From a virus: a DNA stretch of 64,000 nt. The notes under the pieces are model-generated. The model did not search any database. It had not been told where the DNA came from and saw only the letters and a list, made by a program, of their open reading frames with translations. The stretch is taken from the IMG/VR virus record IMGVR_UViG_3300039191_000589, positions 1-64,000 of that record, one strand, 5' to 3'. Position numbers and translations under genes: made by a program. Every line of letters starts with the position of its first letter. Position 1 is the stretch's first letter. This document shows positions 30,575-62,438 of this stretch, in pieces.

Positions 30575-31030
30575 ATTAAAAGGCTTATAAGAGAATCAAA
30601 AAAAGTAACCACTTATCATGGTACTTCAACTGATAATAAAGATAGTATTTTACAAGATGGATTAAGTTCAACACCAGGTGGATTTGGAAAAGGGGCTTAT
30701 ACAACCACTGATTATGATGAAGCATGTAAATATGCTATTAAAGCAGCAGCAGAGCATATTGAAGATCAATTATATGATAATGTTAATGATTATCCTGAAC
30801 CAATTGTTTTTGAAATTGAAATTGATGATAAAAAAGCTGAATCAATTTATACATCATATTATATTTCTGAAGATGGAATTGATCCTAGTCAAATTGTAAA
30901 ATATGAAAATATATCTAATGACTCACGGTGGGAAAAATTAATAAAATTGTTTAATAAATTTTTAAAAAATGAATTAGATAATGAATGGGAATTTTGGGAA
31001 TATGCCTCAAAAATGTCTAATATTATTTAG
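30575..31030 (+). CDS. ART-fold protein with MKRLI-type N-terminus; ATT or ATA start
   Basis: The frame is open only from 30569; no ATG, GTG or TTG precedes the conserved part. AGGTGA lies at the right distance from ATT 30575, which would give MKRLIRESKKVTTYHGTS, matching the N-terminal tag of seven other proteins here. The TYHGTS block, GLSSTPGGFGKGAYTTTDYD and EACKYA follow the ADP-ribosyltransferase plan (NAD-binding His, Tyr region, later Glu). At 151 aa it is a single catalytic domain. In T4, the ADP-ribosyltransferase Alt is packaged through an N-terminal capsid-targeting peptide; this protein could be a counterpart. Enzymatic activity is inferred. Confidence 0.7.
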   Translation: MKRLIRESKKVTTYHGTSTDNKDSILQDGLSSTPGGFGKGAYTTTDYDEACKYAIKAAAEHIEDQLYDNVNDYPEPIVFEIEIDDKKAESIYTSYYISEDGIDPSQIVKYENISNDSRWEKLIKLFNKFLKNELDNEWEFWEYASKMSNII

Positions 31031-31058
31031 CCAACTTTTATAGTTGGCTTTTTTATTT
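31029..31058 (+). terminator. Terminator
   Basis: AGCCAACT / AGTTGGCT stem plus T6, beginning at the stop of the ART-fold gene. Confidence 0.85.
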
Positions 31059-31136
31059 TATTGAAAATATTGTTAAAAAATGTTTATTATTTGAATTATA
31101 TTTATATAGGAATTATATAGCATTGGAGGTTTTATA

Positions 31137-32393
31137 TTGGACAAAGATAATATAATTATGCAAGGATTTTATTGGAATGTTCCCAAAAGTGGAAAATGGT
31201 ATAATATTATGGCTAATAAAGCTAAAAAACTATCAAAAGTTGGGTTTGATTCCATTTGGTTTCCTCCACCATGTAAGGGAATGAGTGGTAAAAATTCAAT
31301 GGGGTATGATTTATTTGATCATTATGACTTAGGTAATTATAATCAAAAAGGTACAATACAAACTAGATTTGGAACAAAAGAACAATTAAAAAAAGCTATT
31401 AAAGAATATCATAAATATGGAATAAATGTATACGTTGATGTTGTAATGAATCATATGATGGGGGGAGAATTAGAAAATAACCCTTATAATAATGAAAAAA
31501 CTTATACAAAGTTTAAATATAAACATAGTAAATTTGAAAAAAATTATAAACATTTTCATCCTAATAAAAAACATAACTGTAATCATAAACCATTTTATGG
31601 GGGTGATTTTGAACCTAGTGTTTGTTTCGAAGCAGATAATCAATATATGTTTAATGGTTTAGTAAAATGGTGTAAATGGCTTTATAATGAAATTGGATTT
31701 GATGGATATAGGTTAGATTTTGTTAAGGGAATTCAAAATAAATATTTAAAAAAGTGGAAACAATGTAAACCAATGAATTCTAGTTTTACTGTTGGAGAAT
31801 ATTGGGATGGTGATGATTATAAAATAAATAAGTTTATTAATGAAACGAATATACGTGCTTTTGATTTTAATTTGTTTTATATTTTAAGGGATATGTGTAA
31901 TAACTTTAGTAATTTTGATATGAGGAAATTGGTTGGGGTTGGAGTAAATCCTAATAAATCAGTAACTTTTGTAGAAAATCATGATACTGATCGTGAATGT
32001 CCAATTGTTCAAAATAAAATAATGGCTTATGCTTATATTTTAATGCATGAAGGGTATCCTACAGTCTTTTGGAAAGATTATTATAATTATAATTTAAAAC
32101 ATAAAATTAATAAATTAATTTCACTACGTAAAAAATTTGCTAAAGGTAATACTGTAAATTTATTTTCTAGTACTGAGACTTATATTGCTCAACGAACTGG
32201 TGATCCAGGGGTGATATTTGCATTAAATAATGGTCTTTTACATAAAAATTTTAATATTACAACTAAATGGAAAGATGTTATATTATATGATTATATTAAT
32301 GATAAAGAAATCGGGAAAACTAATAAAGAGGGTCAAATTAATATTTTAATTCCACCCCAAGATTATATTATAGTAGCACCAAAAGAGGTTTAA
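31137..32393 (+). CDS. GH13-family alpha-amylase, cytoplasmic
   Basis: Hydrolyses alpha-1,4 glucan links in glycogen, starch or maltodextrin. Start TTG 31137 follows GGAGGTTTTATA. All four GH13 regions are intact: I DVVMNH (Asp 101 to His 106), II GYRLDFVK with nucleophile Asp 194, III VGEYWDG with acid Glu 221, IV FVENHDTD with His 282 and Asp 283. At 418 aa it lacks extra C-terminal or binding modules. There is no signal peptide, so it should act inside the infected cell or in lysate. The organisation suggests glucan mobilisation during infection as an auxiliary metabolic function. A copy in a phage-type genome is unusual, and its codon use is as AT-rich as neighbouring genes, so it is not a recent arrival. 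Confidence 0.92.
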   Translation: MDKDNIIMQGFYWNVPKSGKWYNIMANKAKKLSKVGFDSIWFPPPCKGMSGKNSMGYDLFDHYDLGNYNQKGTIQTRFGTKEQLKKAIKEYHKYGINVYVDVVMNHMMGGELENNPYNNEKTYTKFKYKHSKFEKNYKHFHPNKKHNCNHKPFYGGDFEPSVCFEADNQYMFNGLVKWCKWLYNEIGFDGYRLDFVKGIQNKYLKKWKQCKPMNSSFTVGEYWDGDDYKINKFINETNIRAFDFNLFYILRDMCNNFSNFDMRKLVGVGVNPNKSVTFVENHDTDRECPIVQNKIMAYAYILMHEGYPTVFWKDYYNYNLKHKINKLISLRKKFAKGNTVNLFSSTETYIAQRTGDPGVIFALNNGLLHKNFNITTKWKDVILYDYINDKEIGKTNKEGQINILIPPQDYIIVAPKEV

Positions 32394-32455
32394 ATAATAA
32401 ATATAATTATAAACATTTTATTATTTTTTATATATCTTATGGAAGGAGTATAAAA

Positions 32456-32599
32456 ATGAAAAAAAATGAAGTAAAAAGAATATTAGAAAAGAAAAATAAA
32501 TATGATAAAAAAAATAATATTCCTGAAAATAATGCTCCAACTACTAGTAATAAATATTTTGTTGAATTAGTTTCTTATATATTACAGGAGGTTGATTAA
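32456..32599 (+). CDS. Small basic protein, 47 aa
   Basis: ATG 32456 after GGAAGGAGTATAAAA opens MKKNEVKRILEKKNKYDKKN and ends YFVELVSYILQEVD. Its end holds the GGAGG site of the exonuclease gene, supporting translation. Charged N-terminal half, amphipathic C-terminal helix. Function unknown. Confidence 0.6.
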   Translation: MKKNEVKRILEKKNKYDKKNNIPENNAPTTSNKYFVELVSYILQEVD

Positions 32600-32600
32600 T

Positions 32601-34190: not shown

Positions 34191-34886
34191 ATGGCTGAAG
34201 GTAAGGTACATAAACATTTAAAACAAGTTGCGTTAAGATGGCTTAAATTTAAAGTAACTGATCTTGTAGGAGCCGAAGTAAAATTCCATAATGCTTATTC
34301 AGTGGCTGATGCGGCAGGAGTAAATTTAAAAAGAAAAGAAGTTAGAATAATTGAGGTTAAATCATCAAAAGCAGATTTAAAAAGAGATGATAAATTATTT
34401 AAAAAACCAACTTCCTATTACTATCATGCTCATTATTCATATATCATGTGTCCTGAAGGGGTATTGGATAAAAATGATATACCTAAATATTTTGGTTTAT
34501 TATATGTTGATGATTATGATAATGTTGAAGTTATTAAAAATCCAACAAAAAATAAAGGTAGATTAAAAACATATTTTAAAACAACTTTAAGAAGAACTGC
34601 AAGAGCTTTAACTAATGATAAAATATTTAGTAAAGAAAACATTGAATCATATGATAGAACAAATGGCCACTATAAACGAAAGGCTAAATTATGGTTAATT
34701 AGAACTCGTTGTCCTGATTGTAAGAAACATCCAAAAATATTAATTCATGAAGATAATACTAATATTGTAGAATGTCCTAAATGTGGTACTGAAATAGACT
34801 TAGATAAAGCTAAAGTTAATAAAGTGAGTGGTTATAATAAAAAATTTATTAAACAAGCTAATAATCTAATAGATGGTGATAATTAA
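34191..34886 (+). CDS. MmcB-like PD-(D/E)XK nuclease with zinc ribbon, 231 aa
   Basis: The N-terminal 100 residues contain SVADAAGVNL, then IIEVKSSKADLKRDDKL, the motif of MmcB-type nucleases: Asp, Glu-Val-Lys, then a second basic helix and a Tyr-rich strand (YYYHAHYSYIMCPEG). The C-terminus adds a zinc ribbon, CPDC and CPKC about 26 residues apart. A DNA repair or processing role fits. The stop overlaps the next ATG by one base. Confidence 0.7.
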   Translation: MAEGKVHKHLKQVALRWLKFKVTDLVGAEVKFHNAYSVADAAGVNLKRKEVRIIEVKSSKADLKRDDKLFKKPTSYYYHAHYSYIMCPEGVLDKNDIPKYFGLLYVDDYDNVEVIKNPTKNKGRLKTYFKTTLRRTARALTNDKIFSKENIESYDRTNGHYKRKAKLWLIRTRCPDCKKHPKILIHEDNTNIVECPKCGTEIDLDKAKVNKVSGYNKKFIKQANNLIDGDN

Positions 34887-35311
34887 TGAAAAGATTAATA
34901 AAAAAAGCATCAAATGTATGGGTTGGAGAACCTGAAGTAAGGTTAGATGAAGGTCCATCAGGATGGGAAGCAGGAGCTTATGATGTTACATGTATGAAAC
35001 AAGGGGAAATAAAAATAGATGCTCTTAAGGGTATTCCTGGGGCTAATGGAGAGAATCGACAATGGCATAAACGTGATGGAAAAGAATATTTTGGTAATTA
35101 TTCAAAAGAAGAATGGGAAGAATTTAAAAATGATTTAGAACAAAATGGAATGAAATATCCTATTTTTATTACAGTTGATAAAGATGGCACTATTTTAATG
35201 AGTGAAGGAAATCATAGAATGGAAGCGGCTAAACAATTAGAATGGGATTCAGTTCCTGTTGAAATTAAATATTTTGGAAATTCCCAACAAGATGTTCATA
35301 AATTTGATTAA
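34886..35311 (+). CDS. ParB/sulfiredoxin-fold protein with MKRLIKKA tag, 141 aa
   Basis: Starts MKRLIKKASNVWVGE. The middle has the ordered block IPGANGENRQWHKRD, and the end has MSEGNHRMEAAKQL, VPVEIKYFGNSQQD. The GNHR-x2-AA segment and following strand are the hallmark of ParB-N-like folds, which can bind or hydrolyse nucleotides. The paralogue at 41156 shares FPGANGEDRDWHFNGD and EGNHRIKAALHL. Both carry the same N-terminal tag. Confidence 0.72.
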   Translation: MKRLIKKASNVWVGEPEVRLDEGPSGWEAGAYDVTCMKQGEIKIDALKGIPGANGENRQWHKRDGKEYFGNYSKEEWEEFKNDLEQNGMKYPIFITVDKDGTILMSEGNHRMEAAKQLEWDSVPVEIKYFGNSQQDVHKFD

Positions 35312-35926: not shown

Positions 35927-36202
35927 GTGAATAAATATAATGTTACAGTTAATAATGATTATGATATTGGTTATTATATTGTTATAGAAGATAATAATAG
36001 TGTTAAAGCATGTTATGATAATGAAATAGCTAGTTTATTAAATATATCTATTGATAAATACAAAAAAGAGTTAAAAAAATTTAATTATATAAGTAATAAT
36101 GGAGAATCTTATTTTAAAAATAAAAAAGATGCTTTAAATGCATCAAAACGAATTCAGGATATATTAATAATGAGTATATTAACTGTATCTGAAAGGAGTT
36201 AA
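35927..36202 (+). CDS. EWIES-family protein, outlying copy, GTG start, 91 aa
   Basis: GTG 35927 behind AAAGGAGGTAGATAA. GYYIVIEDNNSVK, IASLLNISIDKYKKELK, YFKNKKDALNASKRIQDILIMSIL. The signature has lost EWIES (RIQD), but the rest is typical. It lies about 10 kb from the other copies yet keeps the same type of promoter and leader, so gene and promoter seem to have moved together. Confidence 0.8.
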   Translation: MNKYNVTVNNDYDIGYYIVIEDNNSVKACYDNEIASLLNISIDKYKKELKKFNYISNNGESYFKNKKDALNASKRIQDILIMSILTVSERS

Positions 36203-38573: not shown

Positions 38574-38598
38574 AAGGAAGAGAATCTTCTCTTCCTTA
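38574..38598. terminator. Bidirectional terminator
   Basis: AAGGAAGAGA / TCTCTTCCTT with a four-base loop between converging genes; A-rich and T-rich flanks serve both strands. Confidence 0.8.
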
Positions 38599-39036
38599 AT
38601 CTATTATTCTTAAATGTTGATTATTTTTTACCATTGTTTCATGAATATCTTCTAACCATTGCTCCCATTTATCATTTTCCTGCCATGCAGTAATAGAATT
38701 ATTTTCTAATCCTGATTTTATATCAATTATATTTTTTGGTTTAATTTTTTTTGGGTATAAAAAATCATATCCATTAATACATTTTATACATTTGCTTTGT
38801 TTTACTTTAACTGTTAAAATAGAAATTTTATTATTATGCAACCATCCTCCATATTCTATTGCTTTCTCAATGTTATTTGTTAAAAATATTACTCCATTGT
38901 GGTCTGGCCAACATTCTTTAGGTATATCATTATTATACCTAGAATTATAAGATGGAATCAATCCTTTCTTTAAAATTGAATTAATATTATAATCTGGGGT
39001 GCCATGATAAAGAATTTTAGTGTTATTGTTACTCAT
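38596..39036 (-). CDS. ART/Tpt1-like fold protein, reverse strand, 146 aa
   Basis: The only minus-strand gene I accept within the phage region. ATG at 39036 follows GGAGGGATTTAT on the minus strand. ILYHGTPDYNINSILKKGL, then HNGVIFLTNNIEKAIEYGGW and ISILTVKVKQS follow the ART-superfamily order: an H in YHGT, a conserved strand-turn with a T/S position, then a hydrophobic strand. It has no MKRLI tag, unlike the other ART-fold gene at 30575. It is preceded by a divergent intergenic region shared with thymidylate kinase. Its opposite direction suggests separate acquisition or timing. Confidence 0.7.
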   Translation of the reverse strand: MSNNNTKILYHGTPDYNINSILKKGLIPSYNSRYNNDIPKECWPDHNGVIFLTNNIEKAIEYGGWLHNNKISILTVKVKQSKCIKCINGYDFLYPKKIKPKNIIDIKSGLENNSITAWQENDKWEQWLEDIHETMVKNNQHLRIID

Positions 39037-40325: not shown

Positions 40326-40928
40326 ATGAAAAGGTTAATAAAAAAGTCAAAACATGGTATTGAAAATAGAGATGAAGCATTAACTTACATAGATGGAGAA
40401 ATATATACTGGCCCTAACCATCCTAGGATGATTGATGAATTTTTAAAAGAAAACAAAAAACAAGGGAGAAAAATAATAGAAGATTTTATAGGCAATTTCG
40501 GTCTTGATGATGAAGAAGCTCAAATACTATTAGATAAATTTGAAGATTTAGGAAGAGTTCCATCAAATGTATTATCAGCTTATAATGAATTTGAAAGATC
40601 ATCTGATTATTATCAAGAATTAGGTGATGTTCCATTAGGATTTGGACATATTGTAGAAGATGATAATGCGATATATATTGAAAAAGATTCAATTCAAAAT
40701 GTTGATTTTAATACTATAATTAATGAAATAAAAAATAATTATCCTGATTATAATGTTTATGATGATAGTAGTTATTCTAATTATGGTGGTACTCCTGAAG
40801 ATTATACTAAAGTTGCCAGCAAACAATTAATAAAACAAGCTGCTTATGTATATTGTCGTAATTGTAATTGGAGCCAAGATGATTTTTGGAGTGAATCATA
40901 TAATCCATTGAGGTATTTATTAAATTGA
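40326..40928 (+). CDS. MKRLIKKS-tagged protein, in-frame TGA at its end, 200 aa
   Basis: MKRLIKKSKHGIENRDEALT opens the protein. Residues to about 165 align with the second half of the protein at 43629 (DGE-Y, FGHIVEDDNAIYIEKDS vs FAHIVNDGLAIYIEEDS, YDDSSYS vs YNDDSYP). It then runs into KQLIKQAAYVYCRNCNWSQD, which looks like a second tag plus the start of another tagged zinc protein fused on. The stop is TGA at 40926; the same frame continues in the next feature. Confidence 0.75.
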   Translation: MKRLIKKSKHGIENRDEALTYIDGEIYTGPNHPRMIDEFLKENKKQGRKIIEDFIGNFGLDDEEAQILLDKFEDLGRVPSNVLSAYNEFERSSDYYQELGDVPLGFGHIVEDDNAIYIEKDSIQNVDFNTIINEIKNNYPDYNVYDDSSYSNYGGTPEDYTKVASKQLIKQAAYVYCRNCNWSQDDFWSESYNPLRYLLN

Positions 40929-41144
40929 GAAGATATGTTATTAAATGAAGATTTAGAAGAGCAATTTACAGATGATTGTAATTTTATTGATCAATATGGA
41001 AATTTAAGTAAAAAAGAAGTAATTATAAAAGAATTAAATGATGCTATTAATAAAATTAAAAAAATGGAATATAAAAATGAAAAACAATTAAAAAAGAATG
41101 ATAATAGATGCCCACAATGTGGAGAAAAATTAACTAGAGATTAA
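40929..41144 (+). pseudogene. Continuation of the 40326 frame after TGA
   Basis: Same frame as the previous gene: EDMLLNEDLEEQFTDDCNFI to RCPQCGEKLTRD. The CPQC here would complete a zinc ribbon with CRNC in the upstream part, so both pieces once formed one chain. ATG 40935 could start it, but only a weak GAGAAG lies upstream. The TGA stands where Trp would fit (LLN-W-EDML). Either nonsense mutation or readthrough. Confidence 0.6.
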
Positions 41145-41155: not shown

Positions 41156-41602
41156 ATGAAAAGATTAATAAAGAAAAGTGAAAATTCTCAATATACTGGA
41201 GCTAAATTAATAACAGTTGAAGATGATTATTTGGATGAAGTACCTGAAGATAAAGTTAAAGATACTCATGTTACTAGAGTATTAGAAGGGGTAATTGATG
41301 TTTTTGATATAATGGATTTTCCAGGTGCTAATGGTGAGGATAGAGATTGGCATTTTAATGGTGATCAAGCATATTTTGGTACCTATACAGAAGAAGAATG
41401 GTATGATTTTTTAGATGATATAGAACAAAATGGTATTAAAAAGAAGGTTTTTCTTAAGGTATTTCCTAATGGTGATATAAAAGTTATAGAAGGAAATCAT
41501 AGAATAAAAGCAGCATTACATCTTAATATTAGAAAAGTACCAATAATGATTAAATATTTTGGCAATTCACAAAAATTTGTAGATTATTTTGATAAACCAT
41601 AA
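41156..41602 (+). CDS. ParB/sulfiredoxin-fold protein with MKRLIKKS tag, 148 aa
   Basis: MKRLIKKSENSQYTGA, then an acidic stretch, FPGANGEDRDWHFNGDQAYF and EGNHRIKAALHLNI, VPIMIKYFGNSQKF. Paralogue of the gene at 34886; the catalytic-type GNHR segment is retained. The tag is again followed by an unrelated spacer. It lies two genes before the terminase. Confidence 0.72.
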   Translation: MKRLIKKSENSQYTGAKLITVEDDYLDEVPEDKVKDTHVTRVLEGVIDVFDIMDFPGANGEDRDWHFNGDQAYFGTYTEEEWYDFLDDIEQNGIKKKVFLKVFPNGDIKVIEGNHRIKAALHLNIRKVPIMIKYFGNSQKFVDYFDKP

Positions 41603-41958: not shown

Positions 41959-43611
41959 GTGTTTAATTTAGATTCTATAAAAAATGAAACTAAAGCACTA
42001 CAACAAGACATAGAAAAAATCCAAGAAAATAAAATTCAAGGAATGCCTCTTGGTGATTATATTTTTAATAAAGTTATTACAAGGGTTGATCCAGTTGAAT
42101 ATTGCGAAAGAGTTTTAAGAAATCATTTACCTAGGGAGCAAACAAAATTACATGAAAATCAAAGGATTTTAGTAAGAGCTGTAACAGATCCTAAAATTCG
42201 TAAGGTTGCAGCCTTGATGTCACGGCAGGCTGGTAAAACAGAATCAATTGCTTCTTTTACAGGTTTTTTGTTAGATAATTATCCAGGAATGAGAGTGGGT
42301 ATATTTACTCCTAGAATTCAACAGGCACAAATTGATTTAGGTCGTACTAAAGTATTTTTTCAAATGAATGAAGGATTATTAAATAATGAAATAGTAAAAG
42401 TAACAAAAGATAAACTTAAATTATCAAATGGTTCATATGCTCAAGCAGTATCTGGTTCTGATCAATCTAATATTGAGGGTTTAACTTTTGATGTAATTAT
42501 ATTAGATGAGGCTCAAAAAATTACTGATTATACTTGGTCTGAACGTATTGCTCCTATGGGTGGTGCTACAAATGCGAAAATGATTAAAATTGGAACTCCT
42601 AAAACAAAAAATCATTTCTTTGAATCAATGAAAGGTTCAGCATCAGAAGCATGGGAGTGTTTATATCGGGATTGGACTGAATGTGAACAGTTATGGGTAT
42701 TAAATCAAACCGTTTTACCTGATCATACTGATCCTGAAAGTGGAAGAGTTCGACCATATTCTACATATGTTTTAGGGTTAATGCCTAAATCCTTAAAGCA
42801 AGAATATTTTCCAAAAAATCCTGAAATATGGACAGAAGGAGAAATGTCAGTTCAGGACTTTAGAACCCAGTATATGTTAAATTTTGTAGCTTCTGCAAGT
42901 AAATTCTTTAAAACACATGAAATTGATAAATTGAAAGATGGAGATTTTCATTGGTTAGAAAGTGGTAGAAGAAATGAAACATATGTAGCTGGTATTGACT
43001 TTGCTGGTTCAAGTGCTGGAAATGCTGACTATACTCATATTTCTGTAATGCGAGTTAATGATGATGGAACAAAAGAAAAAGTGTGGGGTACAGAATTTAG
43101 AGGTAAGCGTTATCCTGAACAAATTAAAGAGATTGCTAGTATTTTTGGTGGTCCTCGTCCAAAATTTATGGTTAAAAGTATTTTTGCAGACTATACTGGT
43201 TGTGGTCGACCTGTTATCCAAACATTACAAGATGAATATGGACTACAACAATTAGAAGGTATAACTTTTAATGCTAAAGATACCTATACAAATTCTGGTA
43301 TGAATATGAAAAATATTATGTATGCTAAATTTAAACATGAATTAAATTATGATCGTGTAAAATATCCTAATCAAGAGAAATTTTTAGAAACAGCAGGTTC
43401 TGATAAAAAAGGATTTTATCATAAAATGATTGGAGAGTGGAGTGATCTTGAGATGGAGATGGGAAGAAGTATTAATAAAAGAATTGAAGCACCATCTGGA
43501 GGTCATGATGATGTATGTGATGCTGATGCTTTAGCTAATTTTGCTGCATTAAATGGTCAACAAAATCGTGGAATGCCAAAACCTAGTCAAGCTAAAATTA
43601 GTCGTTTTTAA
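41959..43611 (+). CDS. terL: Terminase large subunit
   Basis: Motor and nuclease that pumps concatemeric DNA into the prohead. GTG 41959 follows TAGGTAGGTGG. ATPase: Walker A SRQAGKTES near residues 87-95, motif with TPRIQQAQIDLGR, Walker B VIILDEAQ near 178, and a coupling motif IKIGTPKTKNHF. Nuclease: GIDFAGSS near 345, FADYTGCG, and HDDVCDADALANF near the C-terminus give the three metal-binding acids. At 550 aa it is complete and fits the Terminase_6-like group. No small subunit is recognisable next to it. Confidence 0.95.
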   Translation: MFNLDSIKNETKALQQDIEKIQENKIQGMPLGDYIFNKVITRVDPVEYCERVLRNHLPREQTKLHENQRILVRAVTDPKIRKVAALMSRQAGKTESIASFTGFLLDNYPGMRVGIFTPRIQQAQIDLGRTKVFFQMNEGLLNNEIVKVTKDKLKLSNGSYAQAVSGSDQSNIEGLTFDVIILDEAQKITDYTWSERIAPMGGATNAKMIKIGTPKTKNHFFESMKGSASEAWECLYRDWTECEQLWVLNQTVLPDHTDPESGRVRPYSTYVLGLMPKSLKQEYFPKNPEIWTEGEMSVQDFRTQYMLNFVASASKFFKTHEIDKLKDGDFHWLESGRRNETYVAGIDFAGSSAGNADYTHISVMRVNDDGTKEKVWGTEFRGKRYPEQIKEIASIFGGPRPKFMVKSIFADYTGCGRPVIQTLQDEYGLQQLEGITFNAKDTYTNSGMNMKNIMYAKFKHELNYDRVKYPNQEKFLETAGSDKKGFYHKMIGEWSDLEMEMGRSINKRIEAPSGGHDDVCDADALANFAALNGQQNRGMPKPSQAKISRF

Positions 43612-43628: not shown

Positions 43629-44483
43629 ATGAAAAGATTATTACAAAAATCTAGTGTAGAAAAAGTTACCCCTATTGAAAAATCATATAAATCTAAAAAT
43701 CAATTAGATGATTTTATAAGAGATGATAATAAAGATAACAGTGATAATAATGATAATATTGATGATGATTTTAAAGATATTCTTAAACAAAAAGAAAGAA
43801 AATTAAGAAATAATAGTCGATTAACTAAAAAATCATATCATGGTATAGATTCTCGAGATTCAGCATTAACATATTTAGATGGGGAGTTATATGTTACTAT
43901 GACCCATCCAGTTGCAATTGAAAAGTTTTTAGGTTCAAATAGAGAAAAAGGAAAGGAAATTATAGAGAAATATTTAGAAGAAAATAATATAGGTAAAGAT
44001 AGTGAAGAAGGTCAAGATATATTAAATGAATTTGAACAAGTAGGGATATTATCTACTGATATTTTCAATGCATATTCTGAATATTCAAGAAGGAAAGGGT
44101 ATTATCAAGATTTTGGTGATATTCCTTTGGCTTTTGCCCATATTGTAAATGATGGTCTTGCAATATATATTGAAGAAGATTCATTACAAAATGTTGAATT
44201 AAATACAGTTGTAAATAAAATAAAGGGAGAATTTCCTAATTTTGATATTTATAATGATGATAGTTATCCTGAAGAAGATGGTATGCCAGAAGATTATGAT
44301 AAATTAGCAAACCAACTTGATCCTGAAAGAATAAAAAAATATAAAAATATACAAAAAAGACCACGCCCTAATTGGAAATCATTAATATTAAAGACTAAAC
44401 CCCAATATTTAGTTGATAATTATTATAAAAAAAATAAAAGATTAATTAAAGATAGGGATGATAATAATGAAAAGATTAATTAA
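43629..44483 (+). CDS. MKRLLQKS-tagged protein related to 40326, 284 aa
   Basis: MKRLLQKSSVEKVTPIEKSY, then a disordered Asp/Asn stretch to about 65 and a second tag-like NNSRLTKKSYHGIDSRDSAL. From there it follows the protein at 40326 (LDGELYVTMTHPVAIEKFLG, IPLAFAHIVNDGLAIYIEED). A basic tail (RPRPNWKSLILKTKPQY) is unique. The internal copy of the tag shows that a tagged gene received a new tagged N-terminus. Located directly after the terminase, thus probably a virion or packaging protein. Confidence 0.72.
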   Translation: MKRLLQKSSVEKVTPIEKSYKSKNQLDDFIRDDNKDNSDNNDNIDDDFKDILKQKERKLRNNSRLTKKSYHGIDSRDSALTYLDGELYVTMTHPVAIEKFLGSNREKGKEIIEKYLEENNIGKDSEEGQDILNEFEQVGILSTDIFNAYSEYSRRKGYYQDFGDIPLAFAHIVNDGLAIYIEEDSLQNVELNTVVNKIKGEFPNFDIYNDDSYPEEDGMPEDYDKLANQLDPERIKKYKNIQKRPRPNWKSLILKTKPQYLVDNYYKKNKRLIKDRDDNNEKIN

Positions 44484-44643
44484 AAAATCTTATAATTATT
44501 ATACAACTCGCGATATATTTTTATCAAAAAATAAAGTTGATTTTAATTACTTTGATGAAATAAAAAGGTTGATAAAAAAAAGAAAAAATAAAAAAGATAA
44601 AAAGGATGAATCAAATGAAAAAAAACATAAAACAAGAGTTTAA
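44467..44643 (+). CDS. Short MKRLIKKS-tagged peptide, 58 aa
   Basis: ATG 44467 (MKRLIKKSYNYYTTRDIFLS) behind AGGGATGAT, inside the end of the previous gene. The remainder is highly basic (IKRLIKKRKNKKDKKDESNE). It overlaps the start of the subtilase gene in another frame and could be a packaged peptide or the detached pro-region of that protease. Confidence 0.6.
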   Translation: MKRLIKKSYNYYTTRDIFLSKNKVDFNYFDEIKRLIKKRKNKKDKKDESNEKKHKTRV

Positions 44644-45457
44644 TTCACAAGTATTTGATTATGGAATTAAATTAATTAACCCTTTTAATATATGGAAAAC
44701 AACTTATGGAGCAGGTATAAAAGTAGGATTATTAGATTCAGGTATTGATTATAAACATTCTAATTTAAATAAGAATTTTGTTAAAGGGGTTAACTTTACC
44801 TCTAATGATAAAGATGATTATATGGATTATAATGGTCATGGTACAATGTCAGCTGGGGTAATAAGTAGTTATAATGATATTGGATCTGTTGGTATTGCTC
44901 CTAATATTAATTTATATAATTTAAAAGTATTAGATAAGAATGCTAAAGGAAATATAGATAATATAAAAAAAGGTTTATTATGGTGTATAAGAAATAATAT
45001 TAAAATTATTGTAATGAATTTTGGTTTAAATAATAGTGATAATAGTCTTCATAGAATAATTAAAAAAGCTTATACAAAACAACTTATTATGGTTGCTCCT
45101 ACTGGAAATGAAGGTAAAGAATCAACTTGTAATTATCCAGCTCAATATAAAGAGGTAATATCAGTAACTGCAATAAATAAAAATTATGAAATACCTAGTT
45201 TTGCTACTATAGATAATGCTGAAATTTCTGCCCCCGGAACAAATATTACTACAACTTATCTTGATAATAAATTTATATCAGCTTCTGGGACATCATTGGC
45301 ATCATCTTATATTGCTGGAATAATTGCTTTATTACAAGGGGAAAACTTAGAAAACAATAAGAGATTTTTAAATCAAAATCAAATTAGAAAAAAATTGTTT
45401 AAACATTGTAGTAAAATAAAGAATTTTGATATTAAATATTTTAGTTTTGATAATTAA
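44615..45457 (+). CDS. Subtilisin-like serine protease (S8), intracellular
   Basis: Serine endopeptidase. ATG 44615 (MKKNIKQEFNSQVFDYG) is preferred, six bases after AAAAAGGATG. The triad is intact: Asp in VGLLDSGIDYKHS, His in YNGHGTMSAGVI, Ser in SASGTSLASSYIAGI; oxyanion Asn in APTGNEG. There is no signal peptide and only a short pro-region, as in intracellular subtilisins, about 280 aa. Situated between terminase and M16 peptidase genes, it may process virion proteins or host proteins. Confidence 0.9.
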   Translation: MKKNIKQEFNSQVFDYGIKLINPFNIWKTTYGAGIKVGLLDSGIDYKHSNLNKNFVKGVNFTSNDKDDYMDYNGHGTMSAGVISSYNDIGSVGIAPNINLYNLKVLDKNAKGNIDNIKKGLLWCIRNNIKIIVMNFGLNNSDNSLHRIIKKAYTKQLIMVAPTGNEGKESTCNYPAQYKEVISVTAINKNYEIPSFATIDNAEISAPGTNITTTYLDNKFISASGTSLASSYIAGIIALLQGENLENNKRFLNQNQIRKKLFKHCSKIKNFDIKYFSFDN

Positions 45458-45527
45458 ATGTTAAAAAAAAATCATATAATCTATATAATTTATATAGATA
45501 TGTTAATAAATGGTGGTGAAGTATATA

Positions 45528-46760
45528 ATGGAAGTTTCAAAGATTAATAATGGATTAACAATAATAACAGATAAAGATAATTCTGCTAATACAGCAACAA
45601 TAGGATATGTTATAGCTTGTGGTTCTCATGATGAAGCTGAAGATGAAATGGGCATTGCTCATTTTACAGAACATATGCTTTTTAAGGGAACTACTAATAG
45701 AAATGCTCAAGAAATATCTAAAGATATTGAAGCAATTGGTGGTATTTTAAATGCTGAAACTTCTTATGAACATACAAAATATCATTGTACAGTTCCATCC
45801 TCAGAATGGGAAATAGCTTGTGATGTATTATCAGATATGATTTGGAATAATTTAATTCCAAAAGATGAATTTAATAGTGAAAAGCAAGTTATATTAGAAG
45901 AATTAAAAATGTATTATGATAAACCTCGTTCAAGGGCAATGCAATTATTATCTATTAATATGCATTTTAATTATAAAAATAGACAATATATTGGTGGAAC
46001 TATTGAAACAGTTAAAAAAATTAATAGAGAACAAATGATTAATTTTATAGATAAATTTTATGTTCCTAGTAATATGGTTGTTATTGCTACTGGTGATATA
46101 GAACATGATAAATTAGTTAACTTTTTTAAGAATTATTGTTTAGATATAGAAATTAAAGACGAATTAAATGATTATAAAAAGTCTGAATTTAATCCACCTA
46201 AATTAAATGGTGATCAATTAGTAGAAGAAAAAAATACTATGCAATCTCATTTATGTTGGGGGTTATTTGGGGCTCAACCTAATACTCAAGAATGTGTTAT
46301 AGGAGATGTTATTGTAACTTTATTAGGTGGTAATACATGTTCAAGGTTATATCAAATTATTCGTGAACAAAAAGGATTAGCTTATACTATTACAATGGAT
46401 AATGAAGAATTTAGTGATATTAGCATAATAAAAGGATATGTTGGTTTAAATAAAGAAAATATTAATGATGTAAAAAATATTATAAAAAAAGAAATGTTTA
46501 AATTAAAAGATGAGTTAGTAACTGATGAAGAATTAGAACGGGCTAAATCATATATTGAAGGAAATTTAAAAATAGGATTAGAAACTCCATCAGCTCAAAA
46601 TGGTTTTCTTACTCAAGCTATAATAATTAATTCAGATATTGATATAGATAATTACTTTAATAAAATTAAATCAGTAACTAAAGAAGATATTATGGATTTT
46701 GCAAGAAAATATTTTAATAAAGATAATATTACATTTTCTCAAGTAATATCTAAAGATTAG
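45528..46760 (+). CDS. M16-family zinc peptidase
   Basis: Start ATG 45528 (MEVSKINNGLTIITD) follows GGTGGTGA. The inverted zinc motif HFTEHMLFKGT (HxxEH) near residue 50 and the downstream Glu in SEKQVILEELKMYYD complete the active site. The second half is the usual inactive partner domain (RLYQIIREQKGLAYT, SYIEGNLKIGLETPS). About 410 aa matches MPP/YmxG-type processing peptidases. Phage-encoded M16 enzymes are uncommon. The site in the virion module suggests work during assembly or lysate entry. Confidence 0.9.
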   Translation: MEVSKINNGLTIITDKDNSANTATIGYVIACGSHDEAEDEMGIAHFTEHMLFKGTTNRNAQEISKDIEAIGGILNAETSYEHTKYHCTVPSSEWEIACDVLSDMIWNNLIPKDEFNSEKQVILEELKMYYDKPRSRAMQLLSINMHFNYKNRQYIGGTIETVKKINREQMINFIDKFYVPSNMVVIATGDIEHDKLVNFFKNYCLDIEIKDELNDYKKSEFNPPKLNGDQLVEEKNTMQSHLCWGLFGAQPNTQECVIGDVIVTLLGGNTCSRLYQIIREQKGLAYTITMDNEEFSDISIIKGYVGLNKENINDVKNIIKKEMFKLKDELVTDEELERAKSYIEGNLKIGLETPSAQNGFLTQAIIINSDIDIDNYFNKIKSVTKEDIMDFARKYFNKDNITFSQVISKD

Positions 46761-48552: not shown

Positions 48553-49494
48553 ATGACTAGTAAGAATTCTGATGTTTTATATGATAATAGAAAGAATGTT
48601 AGTGAAGATCCAGCATATGATTATAGGAAAAATTTAAATTGGAGAATTGATGGTGGCCCTCATAATGATGAAATTGAGGATCCAGGAATTAATGAGTTTT
48701 ATAAAGGTTACCAAATTAACCCTTATGAATTTAGACGGTGGGCTAATAAAAATTTATCAAAAAAACAACTAGAAAAATTATCAGCCCAAGAAGTAATGCC
48801 AATGAAATTTACTACTGATTATTTAGCTGATAAAATTTTAACTTTATGGAATGGAGTCGATGGACCTTTACAATATTTCTTTGATGGGTTTACATTAAAA
48901 TATGATAATAAATTAAAACAAGATATAGCTAAAAAATTAGAACAAAAAGGGTATAAAATATATCCAACCTTAACTGATGATCAACCAAATGATATAAGAT
49001 CAAGAAATGGAGAACATCGCCAAGTATATAAAGAAGTAATGTCTTCTAACAATGTTGATAATATATTAAAATATGCCAAATGTGTTTCTCAACATTGTCA
49101 AGCGGTTAATTTATTAGAAGGAGAAATTAATGATTTAAAAGAAGCTGGAAATGAAATTGAAAAATCAGATGCAAGTGGATTAGCTGAATATTATAAAAAT
49201 ATATTTCCAGAAGATTATGCAGTTTCTTTAGTTAATATTATGTTAGATGATTCTTTAGATGGTGCTTCAATTAATGATGAAAGCTTAGATATTAGTTATC
49301 CCCATGATCAATATCAACACATGTCAGAAGAATCACAAAAACAAATTGAAGATTATATGTCTGGAAATGCTGACCCTTATTATAATAAAGATGGTGGCGG
49401 AGAGTTTGGGTATAATTTTGTTACAGATATGAGAAATGATACAACACGCCCTACTCAGTATGAAACTAAAGTTAGTAATAAAAAAAAAGGTTAA
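48553..49494 (+). CDS. Unknown virion-module protein, 313 aa, ends at an A9 run
   Basis: ATG 48553 after GAGGGGGTTTATAA. Acidic, mostly helical; segments KGYQINPYEFRRWANKNLSK, VNLLEGEINDLKEAGNEIEK and an HDQYQHMSEES turn. It ends SNKKKG at an A9GG run. A -1 shift there continues into the next ORF, which has no start codon or ribosome site, to give about 448 aa. Confidence 0.7.
   Translation: MTSKNSDVLYDNRKNVSEDPAYDYRKNLNWRIDGGPHNDEIEDPGINEFYKGYQINPYEFRRWANKNLSKKQLEKLSAQEVMPMKFTTDYLADKILTLWNGVDGPLQYFFDGFTLKYDNKLKQDIAKKLEQKGYKIYPTLTDDQPNDIRSRNGEHRQVYKEVMSSNNVDNILKYAKCVSQHCQAVNLLEGEINDLKEAGNEIEKSDASGLAEYYKNIFPEDYAVSLVNIMLDDSLDGASINDESLDISYPHDQYQHMSEESQKQIEDYMSGNADPYYNKDGGGEFGYNFVTDMRNDTTRPTQYETKVSNKKKG
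49480..49488 (+). other. Candidate -1 slippage site (A9 then GG)
   Basis: The zero frame reads AAT AAA AAA AAA GGT TAA. A -1 move gives AGG TTA ATA AAA AAA TCT, which is RLIKKS. The embedded A AAA AAG heptamer is a classic bacterial slippery sequence, and A9 runs also favour transcript slippage. Confidence 0.5.
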
Positions 49495-53784: not shown

Positions 53785-54189
53785 ATGAAAAGTAGATTAA
53801 AAAGAAATCACATAAAAAATCGTATAATGAATAAAACTGCTGCTTCAAAAGCATATATAGATCTTCACTCTATTGTATTACAAAGTGGGGATTATATTGC
53901 TTTTGAGGCAAGAATTACTAATAATGAACCTTGGTTTAATATACGTCATGAAACACAATATAGTTCAAGTTCATTTTATAATGGAAATGATTTTGATAGA
54001 GCATGTGAAGTATATGGTGAAATATTAATAGCTTTTAAGGGAACTGTTGGCACTGAAGAAATGAAAGAAATTAGAAATAATATTGAACAAGAAATTGAAA
54101 TTTTAATGGAAGATCATAAATTAATTAATAGAGACAATCATAATCAGCTTAATAAAAACCCTTATTTTTTAGGAATAAATAATTTTTAG
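53785..54189 (+). CDS. MKSRLKRN-tagged protein, 134 aa
   Basis: ATG 53785 after AAGGGGTGATATA. The basic N-terminus MKSRLKRNHIKNRIMNKTAA is a variant of the MKRLIKK tag; the next protein begins MKSRLRKN. The body is beta-rich (SIVLQSGDYIAFEARITNNE), then a helical end. No domain recognised. Confidence 0.7.
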   Translation: MKSRLKRNHIKNRIMNKTAASKAYIDLHSIVLQSGDYIAFEARITNNEPWFNIRHETQYSSSSFYNGNDFDRACEVYGEILIAFKGTVGTEEMKEIRNNIEQEIEILMEDHKLINRDNHNQLNKNPYFLGINNF

Positions 54190-54201: not shown

Positions 54202-54432
54202 GTGAAATCAAGATTACGTAAAAATAATAGTAAATTAAAGAAAAATAAAAAAGTAGCTTTAGAAATTACTGGTCCTGTTGGTCTTATTTTTCCTGATTTT
54301 CAAGATAAAGTTGATAATAAAGATGAAATTAAAGATAGAACCTATGGTCCTTCTTTTGAACATGAATGGTCGTTTGAAGATCCTATTAAAGATCCAGAAT
54401 GGAATATGATTGAACAATATTATGGAGAATAA
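54202..54432 (+). CDS. MKSRLRKN-tagged protein, GTG start, 76 aa
   Basis: GTG 54202 after AGGAGGGTCATATA. MKSRLRKNNSKLKKNKKVAL is basic. The rest is acidic with TGPVGLIFPDFQDKVD and EHEWSFEDPIKDPEWNMIEQ. Pair with the preceding gene. Possibly a small internal or neck protein. Confidence 0.68.
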   Translation: MKSRLRKNNSKLKKNKKVALEITGPVGLIFPDFQDKVDNKDEIKDRTYGPSFEHEWSFEDPIKDPEWNMIEQYYGE

Positions 54433-56476: not shown

Positions 56477-59400
56477 TTGAGTAGAATAATTACTAACAAT
56501 AACAGTAATAACAATAGTAATAATTCTCAACAAGGAACAATTAATCGAAGATATGCAAATCATGGAAACAATGGTAGTATGATGAAATCAGCTATAACTG
56601 ATAAAAATTCACTACCAAATAATGTACAAAATCAAATAAATAAGAAAAAAGGCCCTAGAGCTAGAACAGCTAACGTTAACCGAAATAATACTAATCAAAA
56701 TAATAATGGTGGTATGCAAAAACAAGGTGCAGTACCACGTGGTGGATACAACGGGTATGGTGGTGGTATGGCTAGTGGATCAAGTGCTAACATAAAACAA
56801 TCTAGTCCAGAGTTTTATCATCCATTATTTCAAAATTTAAATATGATGTTACCACGTGATAGAAGGGAAAGAAATGAGTGGTGTAGACACTTTTACCGGG
56901 TTGAACCAATTATTGCTACAGCTTTAGATTTACATACTGAATTTCCTATTTCTGATTTTGATAATGTTGCTTCTGATCCATATATTAAAAAATTCTTTGA
57001 TCATATGGCTTTTGATAAATTAAATATGGTTAATTTACTTCTTGATATAGGATTAGAATATTGGAAAATAGGTGATGTATTTCCATTTGGGCAAATAAAT
57101 GAATCAGAAGGTATGTGGGAAAAGTTTGTATTATTAAATCCTGATTATATAGATATTCAATCATCAGTATTAGCGGAGGATCCAGTAATGGAATTAATTC
57201 CTGATGCTGAAATACAATCAATTGTTAATTCAGGTCCAAATGGAAAATATGGTGATATATATGATCAATTACCTGATGATGTAATTAGGCAAGTAAAAAT
57301 GGGGAAAAACATTAAATTGGATAGTAGATTAGTTTCACAAATTTCACATAAAGCTGCTCAGTATGAAACTTGGGGAACTCCAGTTATGATGCGTTGTTTT
57401 AAAACATTAATTTATAAAGATAAATTACGACAAGCACAAGATGCAATTGCTAATAGACATATTACTCCTTTAAGGGTAGCGAAGATTGGTCAACCAGGAG
57501 AACCAATGCCTTCGCAGGATGATTTAGATGCTTTTAGAGATACTTTAATGCAAGCTGATCAAGATCCTAATTTCTTTTTAGTATATCATTATGGATTACA
57601 ATTTGAATATGTTGGTTCTAATGGTAAAATTCTTCCACTAAACCAAGAATTTGATTTTATTCAAAAAGAACTAATGAATGGATTAGGAATAAATCAAGCA
57701 ATGTTAAATGGTGAAGGTCCTACGTATTCAAATGCACAAGTTGGATATGATACTTTAGCACGTCGTTATATGGCTTATAGGTTGCGTTTAGAATCATGGA
57801 TTAAAAATAAGGTATATAAACCAATAGCTGAAATTCAAGGTTTTTATGAATCAAAGAATGGCGAAATAAGTGCTAGTAATATGACTCCTAAGCAAAGAAA
57901 AATTTCAGCTCAACGAGGTGATATGGAATTAGTTATTCCAGATATTACATGGCGTGAACAAGATTTAACTACTAATCAAAGTGCAATGAATTTTATCCAA
58001 CAATTACAACAAAAAGGTTTAATTTCTATGCAAACAGTATTACCAATGTTAAACCTTGATCCTGAAACTGAAAAGAAACAACTTGAAGAAGAAAGAGGAA
58101 CAGTATTTGATCCAGATGCACCTAAGACAGGTCCTTTACCAAATCAAGGTAGTGGTTCTGGAAATCCAAAACCAGGCGATAAAAAACCATCAACTCCAGA
58201 TAAATCTGATAGTGGTGGAGATTCCGGTGGAGATTCAGATACTACTAAAGAAACAAGTATACAAGATTTTTTCAGTAAAACAGGAAGAATAAAAACTTCG
58301 TCATATAATAAAAAAAATAATAAAGAAAAACAATCAGTAGAAGCAACAATAAATTGGCGAAATACTATGGAACAAATTGGATTAAATAGTCAATTTAAAA
58401 AATATTTAATTTCAATAAATCAAGAAGTAGAAGATTATTATAATGAATTATTAAATAATATTGAAGTTGATATGGAGGAAGATCTAGATGAATTTTCAGA
58501 AAATGTTACAGCAGTATTAGATTATTATACTGAACCAATTGTAAAAATAGGAAAAGAAAAAATAGCAAATACAATTAATGAGGATATTGTTGAAGAGGAA
58601 GAGTTTATTAATCACTATAAAAATAATGATTTAAATGATTTTGAAAAAACTTTAAAGGATGCTTTAAATAATTGTTTTGGTGAATTAAATAATAAAAAAT
58701 TATTTGAAGAAATTAGTGAAATTATTTTTGGTTTTTGTTTGAAATTATTTAGATATTCTCAATTATTAGAATGTCTTAATCATAATATTAAAACCGTTTC
58801 ACTATCCAGTAATTATAATAGTTGTCCTATTTGTAGAACTAAAAGTAAATTTAATCATAATGTAGGTGATTTGATTGATAATATTGATGAGTTTCATGAA
58901 TCATGTAAATTAGTAATTAAACCTAATATAAAAGAAAGTGTTGAAGAATTATCTATTAAAAATACTAATATTAAATTTATTAATATACCAAAATCAATCA
59001 AAAATGAAATTGAACCACTAATTAATAAGATAAAAATGTCAACACCAGAATTATTAAGTGATAAAACAATTAAATTTGTTAATAATATAAGTGATTTAGA
59101 TGAATTTAATACTTTATTAAATAATAATCATCCTAAAGATAGAGTTAATCAAATTATTAATGATGTTCAAGGGAGTGTTGTTTCATTTGAGTATAATAAT
59201 GAGATATTTATTTCAAATGAACATTTAGAAAATATTAAAAATATTATTCTTAAATCAATATTAAAGGATAAATTAATGTTAAATAATGATTTAGGTTTTT
59301 GGAGAAAAGAATATAATAATAAGAAAAAATCAAAATATATTGGTAATGGAGTATCAATCTATGCTAAACCTTTTATAAATTATTTAGCTGAAGAAGATTT

Positions 59401-59527
59401 TAAAACATATTTTATTGAAAGTGCTATATATTATATTTTAAATCCACAATTATTAAAATCTATTGATAAAAATAATTATAAACAGCTTAAGGAAAATGTA
59501 TTTAATAATATAGAGTTTAGGGTGTGA
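56477..59527 (+). CDS. Portal protein with MuF-like C-terminal extension, 1016 aa
   Basis: TTG 56477 after GGAGGTGAAAATGA. Residues of about 110-545 form the portal: FYHPLFQNLNMMLPRDRRER, YWKIGDVFPFGQ, WGTPVMMRCFKTLIYKDKLR, INQAMLNGEGPTYSNAQVGY and LRLESWIKNKVYKPIAE. A Pro/Gly/Ser linker follows (GSGSGNPKPGDKKPSTPDKS). The last 400 residues look like a MuF-type minor head domain, with SCPICRTKSKFN near 784 and EFHESCKLVIKP near 806. A last part, YIGNGVSIYAKPFINYLAEE then FKTYFIESAIYYILNPQLLK, recalls a zincin-like fold but has no HExxH. The fusion of portal and minor head protein is unusual. Confidence 0.85.
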   Translation: MSRIITNNNSNNNSNNSQQGTINRRYANHGNNGSMMKSAITDKNSLPNNVQNQINKKKGPRARTANVNRNNTNQNNNGGMQKQGAVPRGGYNGYGGGMASGSSANIKQSSPEFYHPLFQNLNMMLPRDRRERNEWCRHFYRVEPIIATALDLHTEFPISDFDNVASDPYIKKFFDHMAFDKLNMVNLLLDIGLEYWKIGDVFPFGQINESEGMWEKFVLLNPDYIDIQSSVLAEDPVMELIPDAEIQSIVNSGPNGKYGDIYDQLPDDVIRQVKMGKNIKLDSRLVSQISHKAAQYETWGTPVMMRCFKTLIYKDKLRQAQDAIANRHITPLRVAKIGQPGEPMPSQDDLDAFRDTLMQADQDPNFFLVYHYGLQFEYVGSNGKILPLNQEFDFIQKELMNGLGINQAMLNGEGPTYSNAQVGYDTLARRYMAYRLRLESWIKNKVYKPIAEIQGFYESKNGEISASNMTPKQRKISAQRGDMELVIPDITWREQDLTTNQSAMNFIQQLQQKGLISMQTVLPMLNLDPETEKKQLEEERGTVFDPDAPKTGPLPNQGSGSGNPKPGDKKPSTPDKSDSGGDSGGDSDTTKETSIQDFFSKTGRIKTSSYNKKNNKEKQSVEATINWRNTMEQIGLNSQFKKYLISINQEVEDYYNELLNNIEVDMEEDLDEFSENVTAVLDYYTEPIVKIGKEKIANTINEDIVEEEEFINHYKNNDLNDFEKTLKDALNNCFGELNNKKLFEEISEIIFGFCLKLFRYSQLLECLNHNIKTVSLSSNYNSCPICRTKSKFNHNVGDLIDNIDEFHESCKLVIKPNIKESVEELSIKNTNIKFINIPKSIKNEIEPLINKIKMSTPELLSDKTIKFVNNISDLDEFNTLLNNNHPKDRVNQIINDVQGSVVSFEYNNEIFISNEHLENIKNIILKSILKDKLMLNNDLGFWRKEYNNKKKSKYIGNGVSIYAKPFINYLAEEDFKTYFIESAIYYILNPQLLKSIDKNNYKQLKENVFNNIEFRV

Positions 59528-59890: not shown

Positions 59891-60232
59891 ATGAAAAGAC
59901 TAATAAAAAAAGAGGGTAATAATGTATCTCCAAAAATGCATGAAGAAGTTGAAAAACATATAGAAGATTCTAATAAAGGTAAAAATAGATCAAGAGAATT
60001 ATATTCTCAACAAGAATATATTACAGCCAAAAGAATTTTAGCGGAAATACCTGTTACTCCAACCAATGAAAGGATTTATGAATTAGTTGAAGATATAAAA
60101 AAAGGAGAGTTTAAAGATATTTCTACTGTTGCTCAAGCGAAAAAGAATTGGTCTGATTGGGTAAAAAGAACCACTACAATTTTAAAAGATCGTGGAGTAA
60201 TTGGAACACAAGTTAATAATAATATAGAATAA
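59891..60232 (+). CDS. MKRLIKKE-tagged protein, 113 aa
   Basis: ATG 59891 after GAGGGGGTGTTTTA. MKRLIKKEGNNVSPKMHEEV, then a helical domain (YITAKRILAEIPVTPTNERI) and KKNWSDWVKRTTTILKDRGV, Trp-rich and basic. The tag is complete although the following residue is Glu rather than Ser or Ala. Likely a virion component. Confidence 0.7.
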   Translation: MKRLIKKEGNNVSPKMHEEVEKHIEDSNKGKNRSRELYSQQEYITAKRILAEIPVTPTNERIYELVEDIKKGEFKDISTVAQAKKNWSDWVKRTTTILKDRGVIGTQVNNNIE

Positions 60233-60253
60233 TATAAATGGAGGCTGGTTTTT

Positions 60254-60793: not shown

Positions 60794-60799
60794 TTTATT

Positions 60800-60831
60800 A
60801 ATAGAAGGGTTTTTTCCCTTCTATTTTTTTA
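60800..60831 (+). terminator. Terminator
   Basis: ATAGAAGGG / CCCTTCTAT stem with a T6 loop and T7 tail. Confidence 0.87.
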
Positions 60832-60901
60832 TTTTATTATATTTTTTTATCTTATGTTTATTTAAAATATGAACAATAATATTATTTAAGGTGGTGAAGG
60901 T

Positions 60902-61825
60902 ATGTTAATTAAAACTGATACACAATTTAAAATTAATGATTATTATACCAACAAAGATGAAATAACTTTTGTTACTAATAAAGAGCCTGATTTTAATTTA
61001 TTAAAACAATCAGATACATTGAAGGTTAATAAAAAAGTAAAAAAAATTATGAAAACAGCAAAAAAGGTTAAAATTGCTCCTAAAGAAAGTGATTTTATTT
61101 ATGTAAGAAATAGAGCTGTTTCAGCAGGGAATGTAATTGATAAAAAAAATGGTGAAACACAATTAATTCCAATTGATGAATTTTATAAGTTTTTTGAGAA
61201 ATATGCTAATAAAGTAAGAGGGGCAAATGATAATGGAGATTTCTTTTCCCATGAAGAGTTAAAAAGAACTTATAAAACGTTTATAGGTAAATCTGCTTTT
61301 GTTGATCATCAAAATGATAATGTAGAAGATGCTCGTGGTATTATTTTAGATGCAGTATATAATGAAAAAGGTAGGTTTGTTGAACTATTAAAAGCAGTAG
61401 ATAAAAAAGCATATCCTGAATTAGCAAGAGGAATCGAATTGGGATATATTACAGATACTTCAATGGGATGTCGTTGTGGTTATTCTATATGTTCAATTTG
61501 TCAAAATGAAGCTACAACTGAGGATGAATTTTGTGAACATGTTTTATATTATAAAGGTACTTCATATAATGGATTGCCGGTTTTTGAGGATAATAGAGAA
61601 ATTGAATTTTTTGAAGATTCATTTGTTACTCAAGGTGCTGATGAAGATGCTAAAATTATGGAGAAGGTTGCTAAAATACAAAAAAATACTACTATTAAAA
61701 AACATAATAAAAGTTCACATAATAATAAACTAATGCAAAAAATTGCTAATGAACAAAATAAAAGAACTCGAAAAGGTAGAGTTAATACAATGTCAAATAA
61801 ATTAAATAATTTACCTTGGACTTAA
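60902..61825 (+). CDS. Prohead maturation protease, 307 aa
   Basis: Self-cleaving serine protease that trims scaffold and shell proteins in the prohead. ATG 60902 after AAGGTGGTGAAGGT. The fold runs from FIYVRNRAVSAGNVIDKKNG; SAFVDHQNDNVEDARGIILD carries catalytic His 136, and ELGYITDTSMGC carries Ser 187. Directly after the Ser a Cys-rich stretch (C190, C192, C197, C200, C211, H213) could bind zinc. The C-terminal 60 residues are basic and disordered, probably removed on activation. It may also cut the MKRLIKK tags from packaged proteins, as T4 gp21 does for its packaged proteins; that is inferred. Confidence 0.85.
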   Translation: MLIKTDTQFKINDYYTNKDEITFVTNKEPDFNLLKQSDTLKVNKKVKKIMKTAKKVKIAPKESDFIYVRNRAVSAGNVIDKKNGETQLIPIDEFYKFFEKYANKVRGANDNGDFFSHEELKRTYKTFIGKSAFVDHQNDNVEDARGIILDAVYNEKGRFVELLKAVDKKAYPELARGIELGYITDTSMGCRCGYSICSICQNEATTEDEFCEHVLYYKGTSYNGLPVFEDNREIEFFEDSFVTQGADEDAKIMEKVAKIQKNTTIKKHNKSSHNNKLMQKIANEQNKRTRKGRVNTMSNKLNNLPWT

Positions 61826-61886
61826 CTTATATTTTATATATTTTATTTTATTTAAATATTAAAGAATTGAAATTAGGAGGAAAAAT

Positions 61887-62438
61887 ATGAAACGGTTAAT
61901 AAGAAAAGCATTAATGGATCCTGAAACATTTGAAAATGCGATTGAACAATTAGGTACCCAAGGGAGAGATATTTTAAAAGAAATTGAAGAATTTAAATAT
62001 AAATTAGATCAAGTTACTAGGATTACTCAAAATGATGAACAATTAACTAATAAATTAGAAAATAAAAAAAATGCTGTAGATAAAGCTGCTAATCAATTAT
62101 ATACAATTATATTTGATTTGGAAAATTTAGATATAACTCAATTATATCATCAATATGATGAAAATGTAAATGATCAAATGCCTCATAATCCATCTGATAC
62201 ACCAGAACAGCCTGGGGATATGAATACTAATGATGAAGAAAATGAACGCGAATATGACTCACCTGATGACACTGAGGATATTGAGACGCCTGATAATCCT
62301 AATAGTGATAATAATGAAGATGAAAATAATGAAGATAACGAAGATAATGAAAGTGGAGATAATGAAAATAATGATGATGGTGAAGAAGAAAATAATGAAG
62401 AAAATGAAAATAATGAAGAAAATGAAGAAAATAACTAA
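61887..62438 (+). CDS. MKRLIRKA-tagged acidic scaffold-like protein, 183 aa
   Basis: ATG 61887 after TTAGGAGGAAAAAT. MKRLIRKALMDPETFENAIE, a helical region (EIEEFKYKLDQVTRITQNDE), then over 70 residues of nearly pure Asp, Glu and Asn. The basic tag and strongly acidic tail, with the location right after the protease, point to a prohead core or internal protein. Confidence 0.72.
   Translation: MKRLIRKALMDPETFENAIEQLGTQGRDILKEIEEFKYKLDQVTRITQNDEQLTNKLENKKNAVDKAANQLYTIIFDLENLDITQLYHQYDENVNDQMPHNPSDTPEQPGDMNTNDEENEREYDSPDDTEDIETPDNPNSDNNEDENNEDNEDNESGDNENNDDGEEENNEENENNEENEENN

Follow-up and report, generated by a model that had tools for sequence, protein, structure and literature searches.

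Proteins with widely differing bodies share a short start peptide, typified by MKRLIKKS, in the stretch of viral DNA analysed here (the window: bases 1-64000 of the 110,097-base virus record IMGVR_UViG_3300039191_000589, GC content 24%). Comparison among relatives establishes this peptide, the tag, as a family-wide N-terminal signal in phages resembling Bacillus phage G, and it is probably an address label by which proteins would be loaded into the phage head and injected into the next host. We consider it likely that the tag is a modular head-core targeting signal, similar in kind to the capsid-targeting sequence (CTS) of phage T4 and unrelated to it in sequence.

The contig is a relative of Bacillus phage G; its terminase large subunit (41959..43611; coordinates are those of the window, and features lie on the plus strand unless stated) is 61.5% identical to phage G gp1, and further phage G matches on the contig include the major capsid protein (MCP), the decoration protein, the portal, the protease and several other genes. 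The comparison covered the rest of the contig, the whole of phage G and a dozen more related contigs reached via the terminase or the MCP, two of which are near-identical to a third, while a search of bacterial genomes for MCP relatives returned none.

A chance origin of the tag is excluded. The KRL pattern at residues 2-5 was observed 8 times in this contig and 19 times in phage G, where the internal rate predicts 0.02 and 0.08, and shuffling of the N-terminal columns among genes gave 0.11 against 10 observed for this contig and 0.59 against 24 for phage G. The original prediction had called for a search of related phages, and the tag proved to be family-wide: all 12 G-like contigs carry it, with 110 strict tags on ~49 unrelated body clusters (defined by BLAST of the sequence downstream of the tag), and phage G alone has ~28 tagged proteins. 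The claim that the bodies differ is thereby upheld, with the independent count reduced by paralogy among tagged genes (44% identity between 34886 and 41156; a single family made up of 40326, 43629 and 65221). When N-terminal tripeptides were counted de novo, KRL ranked with the most strongly enriched ones in nearly every G-like contig; the exception, G013 (G-numbers label related contigs), nevertheless has 2 strict tags. By contrast, 0 tags were found in 41 kb of the non-G huge phage LR745208 and 0 in 150 kb of the AT-rich phage AR9. Information is limited to ~8 residues, M-(K/S)-R-L-(I/V/K)-(K/R)-K-(A/S), of which R and L are inflated because both were selection criteria, and A/S is enriched directly behind the tag lysines. 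The tag Arg is written in six codons and the tag Leu in four, and such varied codons for constant residues point to selection on the peptide rather than on the DNA; a DNA-level repeat or regulatory element was rejected for the same reason. Outside the G-like family, homologues start or align only downstream of the tag.

Within the window, eight genes had been listed as beginning MKRL(I/L)(K/R/Q)(K/E), and seven of them do so from ATG. These are 34886..35311 (MKRLIKKA), a ParB_N-like homologue of the tagged phage G gp284, and its paralogue 41156..41602 (MKRLIKKS, ParB_N-like by Pfam); 40326..40928 (MKRLIKKS, fold unknown) and 43629..44483 (MKRLLQKS), each with an internal tag-like piece described below; 44467..44643 (MKRLIKKS), a basic peptide of 58 residues with a second KRLIKK at 44563; and two head-module genes, 59891..60232 (MKRLIKKE), orthologous to the likewise tagged phage G gp17, and 61887..62438 (MKRLIRKA), a phage G gp20 orthologue with an acidic tail and a candidate core or scaffold protein. 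The eighth, the ADP-ribosyltransferase (ART)-like gene 30575..31030 (PARP E 1.3e-5, just under the cut-off), has no ATG, GTG or TTG upstream in frame, and the tag sequence IKRLIRES is read from an ATT, its sole possible start, behind AGGTGA, a plausible Shine-Dalgarno sequence; the gene is thus either damaged or one that rarely used ATT codons can start. Two head-module genes begin with MKSRL(K/R)(R/K)N as had been stated: 53785..54189 (MKSRLKRN) from ATG and 54202..54432 (KSRLRKN) from GTG, orthologues of phage G gp9 (MTRLKKIK) and gp10 (MKKSRLKKVS), respectively. A second tag system based on MKSRL was rejected; because KSRLKK and KRLIKK forms interchange among orthologues, these genes carry a spelling variant of the same tag. 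Beyond the window, the contig has two further tagged genes (65221 and 80502), and 9 of the 43 genes called between 30.5 and 66 kb are tagged vs 1 of 111 elsewhere (P = 4e-5), counts that may be biased by the crude gene caller. No homologue of 30575 or of the 40326 body was found outside the G-like family. The AlphaFold model of the 40326 family has a low-confidence predicted local distance difference test (pLDDT) score of 62, with the first 13 residues at very low confidence, and it matched nothing in the PDB at E <= 0.001, while the ART model (pLDDT 42) was unusable.

ARTs, other host-manipulation domains and the head module are over-represented in the tagged set. Pfam body types include ART/PARP-like, ParB_N, GNAT and WYL, together with gp334 (nucleoside deoxyribosyltransferase-like/Arc with NUDIX), gp345 (SLOG) and gp346 (ferritin/Dps) of phage G, and most tagged proteins have 60-400 residues. 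The tagged Dps/ferritin-like gp346 (L015:5160-5879) also has an N-terminal extension of ~100 residues. In the head module, the conserved tagged genes are the orthologues of gp9, gp10, gp17 and gp20, the last with the tag at the protein start in nearly all relatives, and 6 of the 22 phage G genes from gp5 to the MCP are tagged; the MCP and the portal (here 56477..59527, assigned by orthology to phage G) are without it, as are all 17 tail or baseplate-like genes of phage G. The original prediction had named equal frequency of the tag in non-virion genes as a refutation, and the tag is nearly absent from annotated non-virion enzymes: only 2 of the 116 phage G genes whose notes give an enzymatic or regulatory role are tagged, in a list compiled by hand from the notes of the phage G record to which these two, gp284 (ParB-like) and gp334 (Arc-NUDIX), were added; both are effector candidates.

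The ARTs provide an internal comparison. ART calls on single proteins fall below the Pfam cut-offs, and a tag-blind profile built from the ART-like proteins groups 10 of phage G with one each from G006 and this phage. With gp531 read from its annotated TTG start, 8 of the 10 phage G ARTs are tagged, while the untagged gp532 and gp568 begin right at the YHGTS strand; gp531 (tagged, LKRLLKTSSGTKR-VYHGTS) and gp532 (untagged, LEK-VYHGTS) are paralogues in adjacent positions. An untagged ART-like gene in the window (38596..39036, minus strand), in which the domain begins after just 7 residues, serves as an internal negative control. Iyer et al. credit phage G with at least 10 ARTs and expect ARTs of phages to be packaged in the head, and independently of the tag they predict phage ARTs, Nudix and SLOG proteins to be head-packaged or early-acting (PMC9503650).

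The head module also contains a candidate head-maturation (prohead) protease (60902..61825; PHROG phrog_18299, E 8e-18), which was found in every contig checked with its FVDH (His136) and TSMG (Ser187) motifs invariant; these would fit a serine protease and suggest a catalytic role. It adjoins the tagged gp20 orthologue with its acidic tail and the homologue of phage G gp21 (62468..63469), a candidate scaffold with an internal NNSRLKKKES near 62570, and the position of the gp20 and gp21 homologues suggests that both have a role in the core. The protease and gp21 homologues also have a C-terminal motif in common, LNNLPW(S/T) and LDWT (61780-61825 and 63430-63469), which is kept in most relatives and is perhaps a second short terminal signal for core assembly.

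On the targeting explanation, tagged proteins would be drawn into the core of the assembling prohead, perhaps by docking on acidic proteins of the core (for instance the homologues of gp20 and gp21, 61887 and 62468), would stay in the head with the DNA and would enter the host at infection. That a basic tag docks on acidic core proteins is our guess, and both this docking partner and removal of the tag by the 60902 protease are speculative. The cargo would consist of varied effectors (ARTs, ParB-like, NAD-related, Dps and others) with some core proteins. The original prediction of an independent capsid-targeting system like that of T4 is partly supported. It agrees with all the comparative tests made, namely unrelated bodies, family-wide occurrence, enrichment in host-manipulation domains and the head module, tag-free tail genes, near-absence from annotated enzymes and a protease beside the tagged core gene, with two corrections: MKSRL is only a variant, and 49488 is a frameshift product.

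Several observations weigh against this explanation. No cleavage motif, including xxE, was found downstream of the tag, the tagged genes of phage G are scattered across its genome, and a search for late promoters in the regions preceding orthologues of virion genes yielded no motif that could be used. Head targeting and injection are, moreover, conclusions drawn from sequence comparison. Finally, the motif also occurs within proteins and at a few C-termini, which is unexpected for a purely N-terminal signal.

The internal copies include the case of 49488, which had been presented as encoding the tag at its 5' end. It has no start codon, and comparison with relatives rejects it as an independent tagged gene: it is the second half of the 48553 protein, the gp5-gp6 homologue of phage G (48553..49898, two frames), reached through a -1 shift at the A9 run 49480-49488 that leads to ...SNKKKRLIKKSNEIENIP. 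An A9-A10 run with a -1 shift joins the two halves here, in phage G and in several further phages, whereas they are fused in frame in G007, G008, G009, G010 and G011. Slippage could be ribosomal or transcriptional, and an assembly error is unlikely because independent genomes, the phage G reference among them, conserve the arrangement. The slippery A-run is located within the lysine codons of the tag-like KKKRLIKK, and the phage G annotation has two separate genes here. Gene joining, as had been proposed from internal tag-like pieces, is supported in two cases. In 43629, a second tag (NNSRLTKKS, near 43815) stands exactly where the 40326-like body begins, and its SRLTKKS part can be aligned to the first residues of 40326. 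Near the end of 40326, KQLIKQA (40821-40841) is followed by a CxxCNWSQDDFW module, which in three unrelated viral contigs has a Met start of its own; this indicates that a tagged gene was joined on here. In the window this module (40326-41144) seems to be divided, with one part at the end of 40326 and the other in the open reading frame 40935 (..CPQCGEKLTRD). Other internal copies lie in gp123 and in gp20 of G001. C-terminal peptides resembling KRLKKK or KRLIKRS were also seen in gp10 homologues and in one 118-residue protein (G001 L033-L038, G012 L102, G003 L029-L032).

As the motif persists internally in gp123, G001 gp20 and gp5-gp6, it may be a protease site besides, or instead of, an N-terminal address. 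In the latter case it would be chiefly a recognition or cleavage site of the prohead protease, the N-terminal copies being tiny propeptides and the internal ones dividing polyproteins (gp5|gp6, 43629 and the extended gp20), with packaging determined elsewhere. The internal copies coincide exactly with junctions (that of gp5 and gp6 in every relative, 43629, gp123 and G001 gp20), the conserved protease gene adjoins the tagged gp20, and the A/S enrichment behind the lysines would suit such a site. However, a cleavage site alone leaves the placement at residue 1 on many small effectors unexplained, the downstream residues vary, and the MCP and portal are without the motif. We regard this alternative as unlikely, although it overlaps the preferred explanation because T4 unites cutting and targeting. 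A combination of the two can be offered tentatively, as quite possible though short of probable: the G-like phages would have an address code of their own, an eight-residue prefix that any gene can gain and that directs ~25-30 effectors per phage to the head, while the internal motif, in one instance via programmed slippage in the tag lysine codons, would double as a processing site.

The tag is short and basic-hydrophobic and stands on many unrelated bodies, so it might also be a localisation signal that acts inside the infected cell, directing proteins to the membrane or a replication compartment, for example, rather than to the capsid. This seems very improbable, since the expected cargo of such a signal, namely the phage G genes for replication, nucleotide metabolism and transcription, is without the tag, and head-module genes have it. 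Least credible of all is that copied 5' gene ends or an effect of A-rich codons on translation start produced a tag with no protein function: the genome is AT-rich and some tagged genes are paralogous, but Arg and Leu are retained through many codons on the ~49 unrelated bodies, untagged starts are usual in the same AT-rich genomes and AR9 yielded none, and the genes for MCP, decoration protein and sheath, presumably expressed at high levels, are without it.

Some neighbouring genes were also noted. An alpha-amylase-like protein, recognised by eye (31137-32393), adjoins the ART-like gene 30575. On the 3' side of the terminase, a subtilisin-like protease sequence, also recognised by eye, lies near an M16-type zinc peptidase, the gp2 homologue (44606-45457 and 45510-46760), and both have counterparts in G001. 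A paralogous family of ~90-residue proteins, with 0 tagged members, occupies a region dense in small genes (10497-26000, with 35927-36202).

Should the tag prove to be a head address, sequence alone would give the list of proteins that phage G injects, ~28 with eight ARTs and many unknown families among them, and this unannotated set would become candidate anti-defence effectors. To our knowledge, the capsid of phage G is the largest documented for a phage. It has T=52, and the tag would then be a protein-delivery tag for a capsid of this size; capsid-targeting peptides would, moreover, have arisen more than once.

Among the closest known systems is the CTS of T4, to which the tag would be analogous. 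T4 packages the ART Alt and leaves ModA and ModB unpackaged. As with the CTS of IPI, IPII, IPIII and Alt, a short N-terminal peptide stands on unrelated proteins, an ART included; the prohead protease (here phrog_18299) and core genes lie in the same module; and untagged ARTs occur in the same phage, ModA/ModB in T4 and gp532/gp568 in phage G. Internal proteins of T-even phages are diverse anti-defence proteins with only a conserved CTS in common (PMC3012670). The T4 peptides, MKTYQEFIAEA or MELITELFDE, nevertheless have no resemblance to MKRLIKKA past M-K, the G-like phages have many more tagged proteins, and these are without the T4-type xxE cleavage motif. In giant phages of the SPN3US/phiKZ type, ejection proteins also have N-terminal regions to which a role in targeting head proteins is ascribed and which a prohead protease removes; however, they are long propeptides, mostly of 111-254 residues, cut at an xxE-type motif, whereas the information of the tag is confined to 7-8 residues. 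For head-packaged ARTs and polyvalent proteins, the passages of Iyer and Aravind drawn on here predict co-injection of ARTs with NAD-related enzymes and name phage G as ART-rich. Those predictions come from fusions and gene neighbourhood, with no common start peptide found in these passages, and the tagged proteins are mostly small, unlike the large multidomain polyvalent proteins. A literature search, which did not cover the virion proteome study (Gonzalez 2020), found no earlier account of a start peptide common to phage G proteins. In phage P1, an N-terminal capsid targeting signal within 30 residues of DarB sends an anti-restriction protein into the head, and the Dar proteins have no consensus among them (PMC9024508), whereas the tag of the phage G-like phages is an explicit eight-residue consensus on many proteins.

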